From NCBI GenBank assembly GCA_013335275.1, contig JAAXVX010000060.1, positions 1 to 7,793 on the forward strand: a stretch of DNA of 7,793 nt. The letters run 5' to 3'. The notes under the pieces are model-generated. The model was not told the origin of the DNA, searched no databases, and saw nothing but the letters and a program-made list of their open reading frames with translations. The translations under genes and the position numbers were made by a program. Shown here one piece after another: positions 1 to 3,825 of this stretch. Position 1 is the stretch's first letter. Each line of letters begins with the position of its first letter. The stretch is from Bacteroidales bacterium (lineage in GTDB: Bacteria > Bacteroidota > Bacteroidia > Bacteroidales > UBA932).

Positions 1-1483
1 TGTGTATTGTTGCCTTCATACTTCTTGATAGTGAGTCAAAAAAGTGGCGGAACATATCCGACTCTATACCTCCAATAAATGGAGCAGAAAATTTCAAATC
101 CCACATTAGAAAAGATCTTCCTCCGGCATCAATGAGAACTTCGGCCTTTGATTCATCCATGGGCAATGCAAAACCATATCTGTCATTAATTTCCCCATTT
201 GAGAAAGCTTCGTAAAGTGCTTCTCCAAGAACAATTGCCGTGTCCTCAATTATATGGTGAGCGTCTACTTCAATATCTCCAGAGACATCTATATCCATGG
301 TAAATCCGGCGTGAAGTGCTATCTGCTCAAGCATGTGATCAAAAAACATGATTCCTGTTGAGACAGAGGTGACCATATTCCCGAAAAGATCTATTTTAAC
401 AGAAACACTGGTCTCCTTAGTATCTCTTTTCTTCTCAATTAAAGGAGAGATAAGACCCTGAGATTCACCGTTAATTATAGCAAGCAGTAAATCGTTCTCA
501 CTCCTTTTTCCAACAGTAATACGTAATGTTTCACTGCAACCATATTGAGAATTCCTTTCCCTAACGATAATGCCTTTTCCTTTCAACCGGTTAAAGACTT
601 TTAAAGAATCAGAAAATTTTACCAGCAAAAAATTGGCAGAGCTGGGGTATACTTTTTTAACGCATTTTACCGACATAAGTGAATTAGATAGCCTTTCCCT
701 CTCCCCAATTATAGTTTCCGTATTTTTGCTATTTCCGTTTATAATCAATCTAATTGCACGCTCCTGACTAAAAGAATTAATATTATAAGGATATTTTACC
801 TTATCCATATATGAGATTATCTCTTTTCCTGAGAATGCAAAACCAACCCTTAATGCCGCCATACCCCAAGATTTTGAAAGAGTTTGCAACACAACAAGGT
901 TTTTAAATTCACTAATTTTTGAAACAAATCCACTGTCTTCGGAAAAGTCTATATATGCTTCATCTATGACTACTACTCCTTTAAAGTTTTTAATGACCTC
1001 TAAAACATCTCTTTTGTTCAATAAATTTCCAGTTGGATTGTTTGGAGAACATAAAAAAACAAGTTTTGAGTTTGAATCGGCTGCCGAAAGCAGTTTGCCG
1101 GCGTCTAAAGAAAAATCCTCATTAAGAGCAACCTCCCTGTATTCCACATCATTTACAGCAGCTGCAACTTTATACATTCCATATGTGGGCAATACAGAGA
1201 TAATATTATCTGTCCCGGGAATACAAAAAACTCTGATTAGAATATCTATTGCCTCATCGCTGCCATTCCCCGCAAAAATATTCTCCTCCAAAACATTTTT
1301 AATTTTCGAAATTACTCTCTTAAGCTTCTTTTGTCTTGGATCGGGATATCTGTTATATCCATTGTTATAAGGAGATTCATTTGCGTCAAGGAAAATCCCG
1401 CTTGTCGCCTCGGCTTCGTCTCTGGCAGTTGAATATGCCGACATTAATTTGATATTGTCTCTCACTAAAGTATTAATATCCAT
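1..1483 (-). CDS. hisCB: HisC-HisB fusion: histidinol-phosphate aminotransferase joined to imidazoleglycerol-phosphate dehydratase (3' end missing)
   Basis: I translated this frame by hand from ATG 1483; it stays open for 494 codons to the window edge. Residues about 1-338 are a PLP-dependent HisC: ANESPY (34-39), SPNNPTG (146-152), DEAYIDF (174-180), the PLP-lysine motif TLSKSWGMAALRVGF with Lys204, and LRITVG (320-325). After a short linker (about 339-351), residues 352-494 are a HisB dehydratase: KETSVSVKIDLFG, STGIMFFDHMLEQ, metal-binding HHxxED (409-414), and RHFFDSL near the edge. Roughly 50 dehydratase residues lie beyond base 1. HisC transaminates imidazole acetol-phosphate; HisB dehydrates imidazoleglycerol-phosphate, the step just before. 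No ATG, GTG or TTG codon lies in frame between the HisC core and the start of the dehydratase, so one polypeptide is likely. The usual N-terminal HAD phosphatase of bifunctional HisB is missing. The start overlaps the hisD end by 11 nt, suggesting translational coupling. Confidence 0.9.
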   Translation of the reverse strand, partial: MDINTLVRDNIKLMSAYSTARDEAEATSGIFLDANESPYNNGYNRYPDPRQKKLKRVISKIKNVLEENIFAGNGSDEAIDILIRVFCIPGTDNIISVLPTYGMYKVAAAVNDVEYREVALNEDFSLDAGKLLSAADSNSKLVFLCSPNNPTGNLLNKRDVLEVIKNFKGVVVIDEAYIDFSEDSGFVSKISEFKNLVVLQTLSKSWGMAALRVGFAFSGKEIISYMDKVKYPYNINSFSQERAIRLIINGNSKNTETIIGERERLSNSLMSVKCVKKVYPSSANFLLVKFSDSLKVFNRLKGKGIIVRERNSQYGCSETLRITVGKRSENDLLLAIINGESQGLISPLIEKKRDTKETSVSVKIDLFGNMVTSVSTGIMFFDHMLEQIALHAGFTMDIDVSGDIEVDAHHIIEDTAIVLGEALYEAFSNGEINDRYGFALPMDESKAEVLIDAGGRSFLMWDLKFSAPFIGGIESDMFRHFFDSLSRSMKATIH

Positions 1484-2762
1484 TTTTTTGCTCCTCCATT
1501 CTTACTGTTACTGCATTTCTATGCGCTTCCAAACCCTCAGCAGATGCCATTATCTCAATAGCCTGACTAAGATTACCAATACCCTCCCGGGTAATTTCCT
1601 GATATGATATAGTATGAGTAAAACTGTCCAAAGAGAGTCCTCCCTGAGACTTTGCCCATCCTCCTGTGGGAAGAGTGTGATTGGATCCTGATGCATAATC
1701 TCCGGCACTTTCCGGAGAATAGTTACCTATGAAGATGCTTCCTGCGGCTTCAATTTTATTGGCAATGCCCCAGGGATCAACGGTGCTGATAATTAAGTGC
1801 TCCGGCGCATAAATATTAGCGAATTCTATCATATTTTCTCGCTTTTTCAAGATAATAGATATGCTTTTTTCCAGTGTTCCTGCAATCTCTTTTTGCCTGT
1901 TTAGTTTTGCAGATTGTTTTTCTATCTCATTAATACATTTTTCTGCAACTGTAGGACATGACGCTACAAGAAATACCTGTGAGTCTGTGCCATGTTCTGC
2001 CTGCGATAGCAAATCTGCGGCAACAAATACCGGACTTGCTGTCTCATCGGCAATAACCATTAATTCGGATGGACCGGCAAACATATCAACCGCAACGTCT
2101 TTACATATAGCTTGTTTTGCAAATGCAACAAAGCTGTTCCCCGGACCAAAAATTTTATCAACTTTATTTATGCTCTCTGTTCCGTATGCCATTGCTCCAA
2201 TCGCCTGAGCACCGCCAATTGTATAAATCTCCTTTATTCCAAGATAATCGGCAGCAAATAATATCGCAGGATTTATCTCCCCCAGCTTATTCGGAGGAGT
2301 AAATAAAACAATCTCTTTACAACCGGCAACCTTTGCCGGTATTCCAAGCATAAGAACCGTAGAAAAAAGAGGTGCAGAGCCTCCGGGAACATAGAGTCCA
2401 ACTCGCGTTAAAGGCAAACGTCGTTGTATACATCTTACTCCGGGGGAAGTTATTACATCAACATCCGGGACTATTTGCGCTTTGTGAAATTTTTCAATAT
2501 TCGATGCCGCAAGTGATATGGCCTCTTTTAGTTTTTCATCCAAAAACCGGCCGCTCTCCTTTATTGTTTTTATGTTAACTCCGAAGCTGTTCAGTTTAGC
2601 TCCGTCTAACACTTTTGTATAAAAAAAGAGAGCTTCATTTCCTCTTTTTTTCACGTCTTCAAGAATACTGTTTACAGTTTCCTGTACCATTTTTTCATTT
2701 TTCTCCGGTCTTCTGGCTATTTCATTCCACAAGTCCCTCGCAGGTTCGATATAGATTTTCAT
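1473..2762 (-). CDS. hisD: histidinol dehydrogenase
   Basis: Cytoplasmic zinc enzyme that oxidises L-histidinol to L-histidine in two NAD-dependent steps, the last reactions of the pathway. The 429-residue length is normal for HisD. The expected catalytic and zinc residues are all visible: Gln254 and His257 in LLSQAEHGTDSQ, Glu321-His322 in NIYAPEHLI, Asp355 in SAGDYASGSNHTLPTGG, and His414 in GLEAHRNAV. They are each offset by five from the E. coli positions 259, 262, 326/327, 360 and 419. The glycine-rich VGLYVPGGSAP (121-131) and FGPGNSFV (205-212) segments are also typical. ATG 2762 shares its A with the hisG stop (TAATG), and the 3' end overlaps hisCB by 11 nt. The gene therefore sits in a tightly coupled operon and appears intact. 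Confidence 0.97.
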   Translation of the reverse strand: MKIYIEPARDLWNEIARRPEKNEKMVQETVNSILEDVKKRGNEALFFYTKVLDGAKLNSFGVNIKTIKESGRFLDEKLKEAISLAASNIEKFHKAQIVPDVDVITSPGVRCIQRRLPLTRVGLYVPGGSAPLFSTVLMLGIPAKVAGCKEIVLFTPPNKLGEINPAILFAADYLGIKEIYTIGGAQAIGAMAYGTESINKVDKIFGPGNSFVAFAKQAICKDVAVDMFAGPSELMVIADETASPVFVAADLLSQAEHGTDSQVFLVASCPTVAEKCINEIEKQSAKLNRQKEIAGTLEKSISIILKKRENMIEFANIYAPEHLIISTVDPWGIANKIEAAGSIFIGNYSPESAGDYASGSNHTLPTGGWAKSQGGLSLDSFTHTISYQEITREGIGNLSQAIEIMASAEGLEAHRNAVTVRMEEQKNGY

Positions 2763-3613
2763 TACGGCATCATTTTATCAAGTGACAACACTAATATTCC
2801 CTCCGCTCCCAAGGCTTTTAAACTCTCCAGCTTTGGCCACAGCTGACTCTCATTTACAACTACATGCATTGAACACCAGCCGGGTTGTACAAGAGGCAGA
2901 ATCGTAGGGCTTCTCATTCCGGGAATAATGATTGTTGCATCATCTACCATTGAGAGTGGAATATTCATAAGCAAATACTTCATCCCTTTGCTTCTTTCAA
3001 CGGCCTCAAACCGAGAAATAAGCTGATTTACAAGCACTCTCTTTTCAGCATCAATCCCTTTGTTAATAATAAGAACTGCTTCTGAAGAAAATACCTTTTC
3101 CACCTCTTTTAACCCGTTTGTAATTAGTGTCCCTCCTGTACTAACAATATCAAAAATTGCATCGGCCATTCCAACAGATGGGGCAACTTCAACCGAACCA
3201 GCTATTTTGTGAATTTGCGCAGAGACTCCCTTAGAAAAAAAATAATCTTTAAGAATTTCCGGATATGATGTTGCTACACGTTTGCCATTGAAAGAAGCTA
3301 CCCCTTCATACTCTTCCGATTTTGGAATAGCTAGGGATAACCGGCATCTTCCAAAACCCAGTTTATGTATAATCTCAACATCGGCACCCTTTTCAACCAC
3401 TTCATTCAATCCCACAATCCCAATATCCGCGACTCCCATTTCAACGGCTCCGGGGATATCATCATCCCTCAGATATAGAATCTCCAATGGAAAATCCTCA
3501 CATCTGGTCAATAATTTTCTTTTTCCTTTCTCAATACTAAGCCCCGATTCCAATAAAATCCCGGTACTTTCTTCGTTTAATCGGCCTTTTGCCTGAATTG
3601 CCAGTCTTATCAT
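2762..3613 (-). CDS. hisG: ATP phosphoribosyltransferase, long form
   Basis: Catalyses the first committed step of histidine synthesis: ATP plus PRPP gives N1-phosphoribosyl-ATP. The 283-residue length is that of the long HisG form, which carries its own C-terminal regulatory domain and needs no HisZ partner. The N-terminus (IRLAIQAKGRL) is typical and supports ATG 3613. The PRPP loop is at 151-163 (DAIFDIVSTGGTL), inside the family signature that begins at Glu142. The ACT-like regulatory domain spans about 206-283 and includes KYLLMNIP, PGMRSPTILPL and LKALGAEGILVL; in the family it binds histidine for feedback inhibition. No clear Shine-Dalgarno is seen, as is common in Bacteroidota. The T-tract of the attenuator ends only 12 nt before the start codon. 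This is the first structural gene of the operon. Confidence 0.97.
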   Translation of the reverse strand: MIRLAIQAKGRLNEESTGILLESGLSIEKGKRKLLTRCEDFPLEILYLRDDDIPGAVEMGVADIGIVGLNEVVEKGADVEIIHKLGFGRCRLSLAIPKSEEYEGVASFNGKRVATSYPEILKDYFFSKGVSAQIHKIAGSVEVAPSVGMADAIFDIVSTGGTLITNGLKEVEKVFSSEAVLIINKGIDAEKRVLVNQLISRFEAVERSKGMKYLLMNIPLSMVDDATIIIPGMRSPTILPLVQPGWCSMHVVVNESQLWPKLESLKALGAEGILVLSLDKMMP

Positions 3614-3625
3614 AACTTTTTGGAT

Positions 3626-3660
3626 AAAAAAAAGGGCCTACCGCAATGGTAAGCCCCTTT
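3626..3660 (-). terminator. his attenuator: intrinsic terminator ahead of hisG
   Basis: On the minus strand, AAAGGGGCTTACC (3660-3648) pairs with GGTAGGCCCTTTT (3642-3630) around the 5-nt loop ATTGC. That gives 13 pairs with two G-U wobbles. The 3' side is a run of eight T (3633-3626), four of them in the stem. It lies between the leader peptide stop (3686) and the hisG start (3613), so it can only act as a conditional terminator of the his operon or as a stop for transcripts arriving from ccsA. Confidence 0.93.
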
Positions 3661-3762
3661 AAGGTTTAATTATATATATTTATTCTTATCTCATATATAC
3701 AAATAGCCTCTCAAGCCTACCGTTAAACTGCAGGTGATGATGATGGAGTAAATTGCTATTTG
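3648..3762 (-). promoter_or_regulatory. his leader RNA: alternative protector and antiterminator pairings
   Basis: Three mutually exclusive pairings can be drawn. First, the leader segment GGTAGGCTT (3721-3713) repeats the terminator's 3' arm and can pair with the terminator's 5' arm (GGGGCTTACC, 3657-3648) as an antiterminator of about 9 pairs, three of them G-U. Second, CCTGC (3734-3730), which starts at the last base of the final His codon, can pair with GTAGG (3720-3716) and hide that segment. Third, CAAATAGC (3762-3755) is a perfect complement of GCTATTTG (3707-3700) and closes a larger protector stem, possibly extended by CTC/GAG. A ribosome stalled on the His codons would cover CCTGC and leave GGTAGGC free, favouring readthrough into hisG. 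Pairings are read by eye; energies were not computed. Confidence 0.75.
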
Positions 3763-3775
3763 AATAATTGAACAT
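3686..3775 (-). CDS. hisL: his operon leader peptide (29 codons, four consecutive His)
   Basis: This short reading frame starts at ATG 3775, the first start codon after the predicted transcription start. It encodes 29 residues and ends with TAA at 3688-3686. It begins MFNYSNSNLL; residues 11-14 are His-His-His-His (CAT CAT CAT CAC, 3745-3734); it ends LFVYMR. A His run in a tiny frame directly ahead of a terminator and hisG is the hallmark of a his attenuation leader. Its translation, not the peptide itself, is the likely function: ribosomes should stall at the His codons when charged His-tRNA is scarce. It differs in sequence from the enterobacterial HisL, so the symbol is given by position and role. 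No strong ribosome binding site is visible; GGGA lies very close to the start. Confidence 0.9.
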   Translation of the reverse strand: MFNYSNSNLLHHHHLQFNGRLERLFVYMR

Positions 3776-3792
3776 GTTCCCGATTTGTGCTG

Positions 3793-3825
3793 CAAATGTA
3801 GCAGAAAAAATAACTCTAAAACAAA
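3793..3825 (-). promoter_or_regulatory. his operon promoter, Bacteroidota type
   Basis: On the minus strand TACATTTG (3800-3793) matches the Bacteroidota -7 consensus TAnnTTTG exactly. A TTTG (3825-3822) lies 21 nt upstream as the -33 element. Transcription would start near 3788-3785, about 10-13 nt before the leader peptide ATG, giving a leader RNA of roughly 175 nt before hisG. The -33 box begins 6 nt past the ccsA stop codon. Confidence 0.75.

Follow-up and report, generated by a model that had tools for sequence, protein, structure and literature searches.

The leader peptide of E. coli, HisL, contains a run of seven His. In the enterobacterial his leader (RF00514; HisL), the His codons lie in a short open reading frame (ORF) before the first his gene and are followed by alternative antiterminator and terminator hairpins. 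Outside the Proteobacteria, his attenuators with three to five His in a row, a terminator and an antiterminator were identified in Firmicutes by comparative genomics (PMC9413887, 2022). In the sections cited here, that study gives no RF00514 matches in the phylum and a patchy distribution over 17 species. Leaders with His codons were also described for hisS and hisZ in Firmicutes (PMC2965389, 2010). The string "bacteroid" is absent from the main texts of both papers.

Within Bacteroidota, the transcriptome of Flavobacterium psychrophilum offered strong clues for leader-peptide attenuation before amino-acid operons, and a 5' element of hisG was described there as conserved in Flavobacteriaceae and without Rfam hits (PMC9723704, 2021). 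In the passages cited, conservation is given at the family level only, without an anatomy of the element; the phylum, the gene and the lack of an Rfam match are shared with the present locus. For Bacteroides thetaiotaomicron, long 5' UTRs were reported that contain small ORFs resembling leader peptides, and attenuation was suspected (PMC7366714). The relevant passage names a hypothetical protein gene and no amino-acid operon, and the word "histidine" is absent from the main text. The F. psychrophilum report appears to be the closest notice in Bacteroidota, in a literature search that was thin on subscription journals.

The window (the whole stretch of 7,793 nucleotides analysed here) carries a his operon on its minus strand. 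Upstream of the operon, profile searches matched a NapC/NirT cytochrome, a cytochrome c552 (nrfA-like), ResB and the cytochrome c assembly protein CcsA on the same strand. The stop of ccsA (3832) and the ATG of hisG (3613) enclose a gap of 218 nt. A preliminary description, made from the sequence, had placed in this gap a Bacteroidota-type promoter, a 29-codon leader with four His in a row and a 13-bp terminator with a T8 tract; the gap and each of these elements were recovered, the terminator by a dedicated scan (Table 1). At the far end of the operon, a HisC-like aminotransferase and a HisB imidazoleglycerol-phosphate dehydratase domain share a single open frame, an apparent fusion, which runs past the window edge.

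Table 1. Features of the his operon and its upstream region (window positions)
Feature	Position	Strand	Basis
Promoter -33-like TTTG	3822..3825	-	read from sequence; 21 nt before -7 element
Promoter -7 element TACATTTG (TAnnTTTG)	3793..3800	-	sequence match; recurrence in relatives
Leader peptide ORF MFNYSNSNLLHHHHLQFNGRLERLFVYMR, 29 codons, stop TAA 3688-3686	3686..3775	-	translation; kept in genus alignment
Four consecutive His codons CAT CAT CAT CAC (putative sensing codons)	3734..3745	-	sequence; alignment
Segment 1 (CCTGC), 5' arm of proposed protector hairpin 1:2	3730..3734	-	pairing in alignment
Segment 2 (GGTAGGCTT), inside leader ORF; antiterminator 5' arm	3713..3721	-	pairing and covariation in alignment
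Segment 3 (AAAGGGGCTTACC), terminator 5' arm; alternatively antiterminator 3' arm	3648..3660	-	terminator scan, alignment, folding
Segment 4 (GGTAGGCCCTTTT), terminator 3' arm	3630..3642	-	terminator scan, alignment
T8 tract of predicted intrinsic terminator, overlapping segment 4 end	3627..3634	-	terminator scan
hisG, ATP phosphoribosyltransferase, operon gene 1	2762..3613	-	PF01634 and PF08029 above cut-off
hisD, histidinol dehydrogenase, gene 2	1473..2762	-	PF00815; one base overlap with hisG stop
hisC-like aminotransferase and imidazoleglycerol-phosphate dehydratase domain (HisB), one frame	2..1483	-	PF00155 at 40-335, PF00475 at 376-494

As is expected of amino-acid operon attenuators, a candidate promoter, read as a sequence element, lies upstream of the leader. 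It agrees with TTTG/TAnnTTTG, which we take to be the Bacteroidota consensus. Among leader loci with enough flank, TAnnTTTG was found in the 60 nt that precede the leader start at 21/22 genus, 2/2 family, 45/66 order and 31/39 class loci, against shuffle expectations of 0.6, 0.0, 3.5 and 1.4, respectively. A sigma-70 promoter was set aside after a scan of the region gave no site. Unlike the enterobacterial his leader, none of the 22 genus leaders has a Shine-Dalgarno (SD)-like 4-mer within 20 nt upstream. Such strings (AGGA, GAGG or longer) were likewise absent at this distance from the 2 family and 39 class loci and were present in 4 of 66 order loci. Bacteroidota ribosomes initiate largely without Shine-Dalgarno pairing.

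The putative leader is a short ORF with consecutive cognate codons upstream of hisG, the operon's first gene, from whose ATG it is separated by 72 nt. Eleven of the 12 columns of the His run are invariant among 22 aligned sequences. The pattern CAYCAYCAYCAY has three sites in the whole 1.92-Mb assembly, and a control pattern has none. A leader was scored under a strict definition (an ORF of 8–60 amino acids with at least four His in seven codons, no more than 450 nt upstream of hisG). Class-wide, 130 of 171 hisG loci carry one, compared with 6 of 3420 dinucleotide-shuffled upstream regions; by strand, His-rich ORFs were seen in 63/89 sense and 1/89 antisense sequences. A chance origin of the run was set aside on its scarcity in the assembly, on the antisense strand and in the shuffled regions.

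Conservation was followed outward from the genus, where hisG is present in 22 of 25 genomes, the window's own included. The His-rich ORF was found in 22/22 genus, 2/3 family, 67/94 order and 39/52 other class loci. Leader and terminator-like hairpin in succession were found in 22/22, 2/3, 64/94 and 27/52 loci. The preliminary description had named relatives devoid of both the His run and the terminator as evidence against an attenuator; both are present in every genus locus and, outside the genus, in 93 of 149 other class loci. No strict leader was scored at 41 of the 171 loci, and a simple scan detected no terminator after 15 of the 130 leaders, of which 12 belong to the 39 class leaders. A further 16 loci combine a three-His ORF with a terminator in the last 200 nt, the ORF being poorly placed in some (G076, G200).

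The loci behind these counts were chosen as follows. G022 was kept in the genus set although its hisG is cut, and a leader comparison was made without L068 and L085, which have fewer than 100 nt upstream. The order set consists of 93 of the 94 genomes with a match other than G000, G157 (split) having been dropped, together with G047. G060 was counted under the order though it is of the window's family. The hisG fragments of G045, G051 and G056 were excluded from the locus counts, and G176, with 82 nt upstream, was scored as without a leader.

Between the leader ORF and hisG lies a predicted intrinsic terminator. Segments 3 and 4 form 13 pairs around the loop ATTGC, with 13 nt between the end of the hairpin and the hisG ATG. 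A single terminator-like site was detected in the region, against a shuffle mean of 0.2. Folded as one RNA, the 181-nt leader gave a z of −1.92, and 9 of 200 shuffles folded as well. This single-fold score is unconvincing alone; what convinces is the conservation.

The predicted antiterminator, which was absent from the preliminary description, is the part with the best covariation. Its core GGTAGGC (3721-3715) complements GCTTACC (3654-3648) of the terminator 5' arm. The core pairing is kept in 154/154 cells of the 22 aligned sequences (A1, A2), which comprise 21 from the genus and G035 of another genus, with G022 left out. One 2:3 pair shows a U-A/C-G double change in 8 sequences, the other pairs showing none; with 8 cells changed on both sides, the helix scored higher than any of 500 shuffles. 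Within the leader, the changed base is the wobble position of a glycine codon; in those 8 sequences the other arm of the terminator has the matching base. In G017 and G009 the terminator arm is shifted in the alignment. On the hisG tree, at least three double changes were counted. The within-genus covariation statistics are modest, since only two independent comparisons rest on well-supported branches; four of the seven pairs are invariant.

Outside the genus, sequences diverge yet pairing stays, as with CTCAGGCG and CGTCTGAG in G068 and G114. The region after the His codons was scored against its own terminator arm, giving a mean z of −3.07 in the genus, −1.82 in the order and −2.06 in the class. 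Binding was better than in shuffles (p ≤ 0.05) in 22/22, 33/64 and 12/27 loci, respectively. The own arm was better than all 40 swapped arms in only 2/22, 11/64 and 3/27, as relatives share motifs. The proposed protector hairpin 1:2 was paired in 95.5% of cells, without double-sided change and without excess over shuffles.

Folding calculations were carried out with a simulated ribosome. With the ribosome on the second His codon and segment 4 unmade, the probability of 2:3 pairing, scored on the 7-nt core, was at least 0.99 in 22/22 sequences; in the window, with segment 4 likewise unmade, the antiterminator reached 0.98 whichever of the four His codons the ribosome occupied. Together with the covariation, this points to an antiterminator just downstream of the His codons that is mutually exclusive with the terminator. 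At equilibrium, with the whole leader made and the ribosome stalled, the window gave 1.00 for 3:4 and 0.00 for 2:3. Segment 3 of the whole leader was then paired downstream with a probability of at least 0.83 in 21/22 sequences and of 0.48 in G003. Because the terminator wins at equilibrium despite the stalled ribosome, the proposed switch must rest on folding order. For a ribosome at the stop codon, the RNA behind it was dropped from the calculation, so the resulting 2:3 probability of 0 holds by construction and is no evidence. Without a ribosome, the antiterminator scored above 0.9 in 10/22 sequences, below 0.2 in 10 and 0.40–0.62 in 2; given these mixed scores, an untranslated leader cannot be called clearly "off".

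Onto these elements we infer a sequence of stalling, timing and histidine dependence. RNA polymerase would start some 12 nt upstream of the leader ATG, with a ribosome following. With charged tRNA-His in short supply, the ribosome would stall at the His run and leave segment 2 free to pair with segment 3 as the latter emerges. The 2:3 antiterminator would then delay the 3:4 terminator until the polymerase has entered hisG-hisD-hisC/B. When histidine is plentiful, the ribosome would reach the stop codon, which lies inside the antiterminator loop, and disrupt the antiterminator; segments 3 and 4 with the T8 tract would then bring transcription to an end 13 nt short of the hisG ATG.

The predicted logic is that of the enterobacterial his leader, though the His run of the window, at four, is shorter. 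The window gave no match to the Rfam His_leader model (RF00514), even with the cut-off relaxed to E ≤ 5, and the leader is therefore not of the enterobacterial sequence family. This search had been proposed in the preliminary description, which considered the two leader peptide sequences unrelated, and its outcome agrees. The lack of similarity fits an independent evolution of the two. T-box models gave no match in the window or in the loci of 20 relatives, where the only match at gathering score to any Rfam model was a small SRP RNA in L204. A T-box or other catalogued RNA was discarded, the weak matches in the window scoring 20.3 bits for suhB, 20 for NrrF and 14.2 for sR14 against cut-offs of 41, 60 and 38. 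The earlier wording "little-described" held: no Rfam family matched, though an element of this kind had already been hinted at in Flavobacteriaceae (PMC9723704).

Compared with the patchy Firmicutes leaders, which share consecutive His codons, a terminator and an antiterminator, 130 of 171 sampled hisG loci is a broad distribution for one class. Outside the class, 38 of the 54 same-phylum genomes with hisG were sampled. Judged by the ORF alone, leaders with at least four His were found in 17/38 loci, belonging to two families (8/9 and 9/9), and in 0/20 loci spread over 12 other families. One family outside the class, f183 (L333, L335, L348, L350, L353, L355 and others), has spaced His pairs, e.g. 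VHHLHQGHHHA. These spaced-His leaders precede hisG in 9/9 loci and are read from GTG in 8.

Two His leaders in series before hisG were found at 6 of 94 order loci (G067, G098, G075, G218, G173 and G047). By reading, each module has its own hairpin and T run; the tandem leader–terminator loci are L146, L150, L181, L185, L190 and L027. Judged by ORFs, pairs also occur before other genes, with Trp leaders before trpE in G041 and Asn leaders before asnA in G073 and G058.

Leaders of other operons in the order carry other residues: WWW before trpE, Val runs before ilvD and Phe/Tyr mixtures before pheA. The trpE, ilvD, pheA and asnA loci were judged by the leader ORF alone; loci were used from 27/32 trpE genomes, 28/29 for ilvD and 23/26 matches for pheA, the remainder being fragments or weak. 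At least three Trp in seven codons were found at 19/27 trpE loci. At least four Val were found at 12/28 ilvD loci compared with 4/89 hisG regions, the search covering 350 nt for the ilvD comparison and 450 nt for hisG regions. Neither Leu (7/28 versus 16/89) nor Ile (4/28 versus 12/89) showed a clear excess at ilvD. For pheA, at least four Phe were found at 14/23 loci versus 6/89 hisG regions, and a looser count of at least three Phe, made without a control, gave 23/23. Leaders with at least four His were absent from all 27 trpE, 28 ilvD and 23 pheA loci. Asn leaders are not general, as only 4/24 asnA loci have at least four Asn in seven codons.

A covariance model was built from the 22 aligned sequences and run on 60 relatives. 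Its 23 best matches lay directly upstream of hisG, 22 of them being training sequences. Independent matches before hisG were obtained in G022, G045, G026, G037, G058, G044, G053 and G052 and for both modules of G047. Matches with E between 1e-6 and 1e-3 included four-Tyr leaders with a terminator in G000, G011, G021, G006 and G020, which precede a gene of the tryptophanase/tyrosine phenol-lyase family. Further matches were an Asn-rich leader before asnA in G012, with others in G007 and G015 at E 0.0024–0.0026, and one just before trpE in G039 (E 0.0016). Gene identity downstream of the leader was determined for L320, L323, L324 and L326; the others were called by first-residue resemblance. Inspection of the matches L328 and L329 showed no such leader, and some weaker matches lie antisense to the terminator.

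The four-Tyr leader of the window's own genome, MKSTNYNINSLYYYYRRLPRVGYGIGLC, lies with its terminator at L320:2461-2609 (G000:C356:2960-3108, minus strand). The gene after it passes NF009709 and falls below the tyrosine phenol-lyase equivalog cut-off; the best solved relatives of its product are tyrosine phenol-lyases. Such a degradative-looking enzyme would be an odd target for a starvation-type switch, and the odd pairing may mean that it makes tyrosine. In genus members, Asn-rich leaders with terminators stand before asnA at L323:707-862 and L326:718-857.

Taken together, the stretch between ccsA and hisG very probably controls the his operon by ribosome-mediated transcription attenuation, as the preliminary description had predicted; the His ORF and terminator conserved throughout the genus support this. 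The hairpin might instead be the terminator of the ccsA unit, with a fortuitous His ORF and hisG expressed otherwise. ccsA is co-directional with hisG and is the upstream neighbour at 20/20 genus loci having leader, terminator and a flank of at least 450 nt, and the hairpin would also stop read-through from ccsA and may have this double role. However, ccsA is in the flank of 0/91 such loci outside the genus, and since it adjoins only there, this reading was set aside. Against it also stand the rarity of His-rich ORFs in shuffled regions and the covariation between the terminator arm and a codon wobble position of the leader, and we consider it very unlikely. About equally improbable is a translational attenuation in which the stalled ribosome would expose the start region of hisG rather than prevent termination. 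The closeness of the hairpin to the hisG ATG and the 15 leader loci scored without a terminator would suit it, but there is a T8 tract at the end of the hairpin, every genus locus has a terminator after its leader, and translation starts in Bacteroidota generally depend little on access to an SD sequence.

That the small ORF encodes a functional His-rich peptide, for example a metal-binding one, whose message the hairpin merely ends, seems the least credible reading. Most of the genus keeps a recognisable peptide outside the His run, as such a function would have it, but this part differs widely beyond the genus, other operons show other repeated residues at the same place, and after the His run conservation is highest in the codons that make up segment 2. 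Ribosome reinitiation from a nearby leader was a separate candidate. In Bacteroidetes, leader-to-gene spacing peaks at 11–14 bp, a peak linked to reinitiation (PMC4833913); reinitiation was set aside, as leader and hisG are 72 nt apart in the window.

Attenuation by a leader peptide is a known kind of mechanism. What is newer here is the unmatched sequence, the breadth of its distribution, the scarcity of SD-like signals and the tandem form. On balance, we cautiously favor a wider reading, in which leader-peptide attenuation operates throughout Bacteroidota without Shine-Dalgarno signals and the repeated codon names the pathway: His for hisG, Trp for trpE, Phe/Tyr for pheA, Val for ilvD and, in places, Asn for asnA and Tyr for a tyrosine phenol-lyase/tryptophanase-family gene. 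Some lineages would stack two attenuators, giving a steeper, two-step starvation switch. Classical leader-peptide attenuation requires that a ribosome follow RNA polymerase closely. Should it operate across the phylum with matching codons and little use of SD sequences, tight coupling of transcription and translation would be implied there. A map of amino-acid regulation could then be read from sequence for major gut and environmental bacteria, and leader codons would aid the annotation of downstream genes whose substrate is uncertain.
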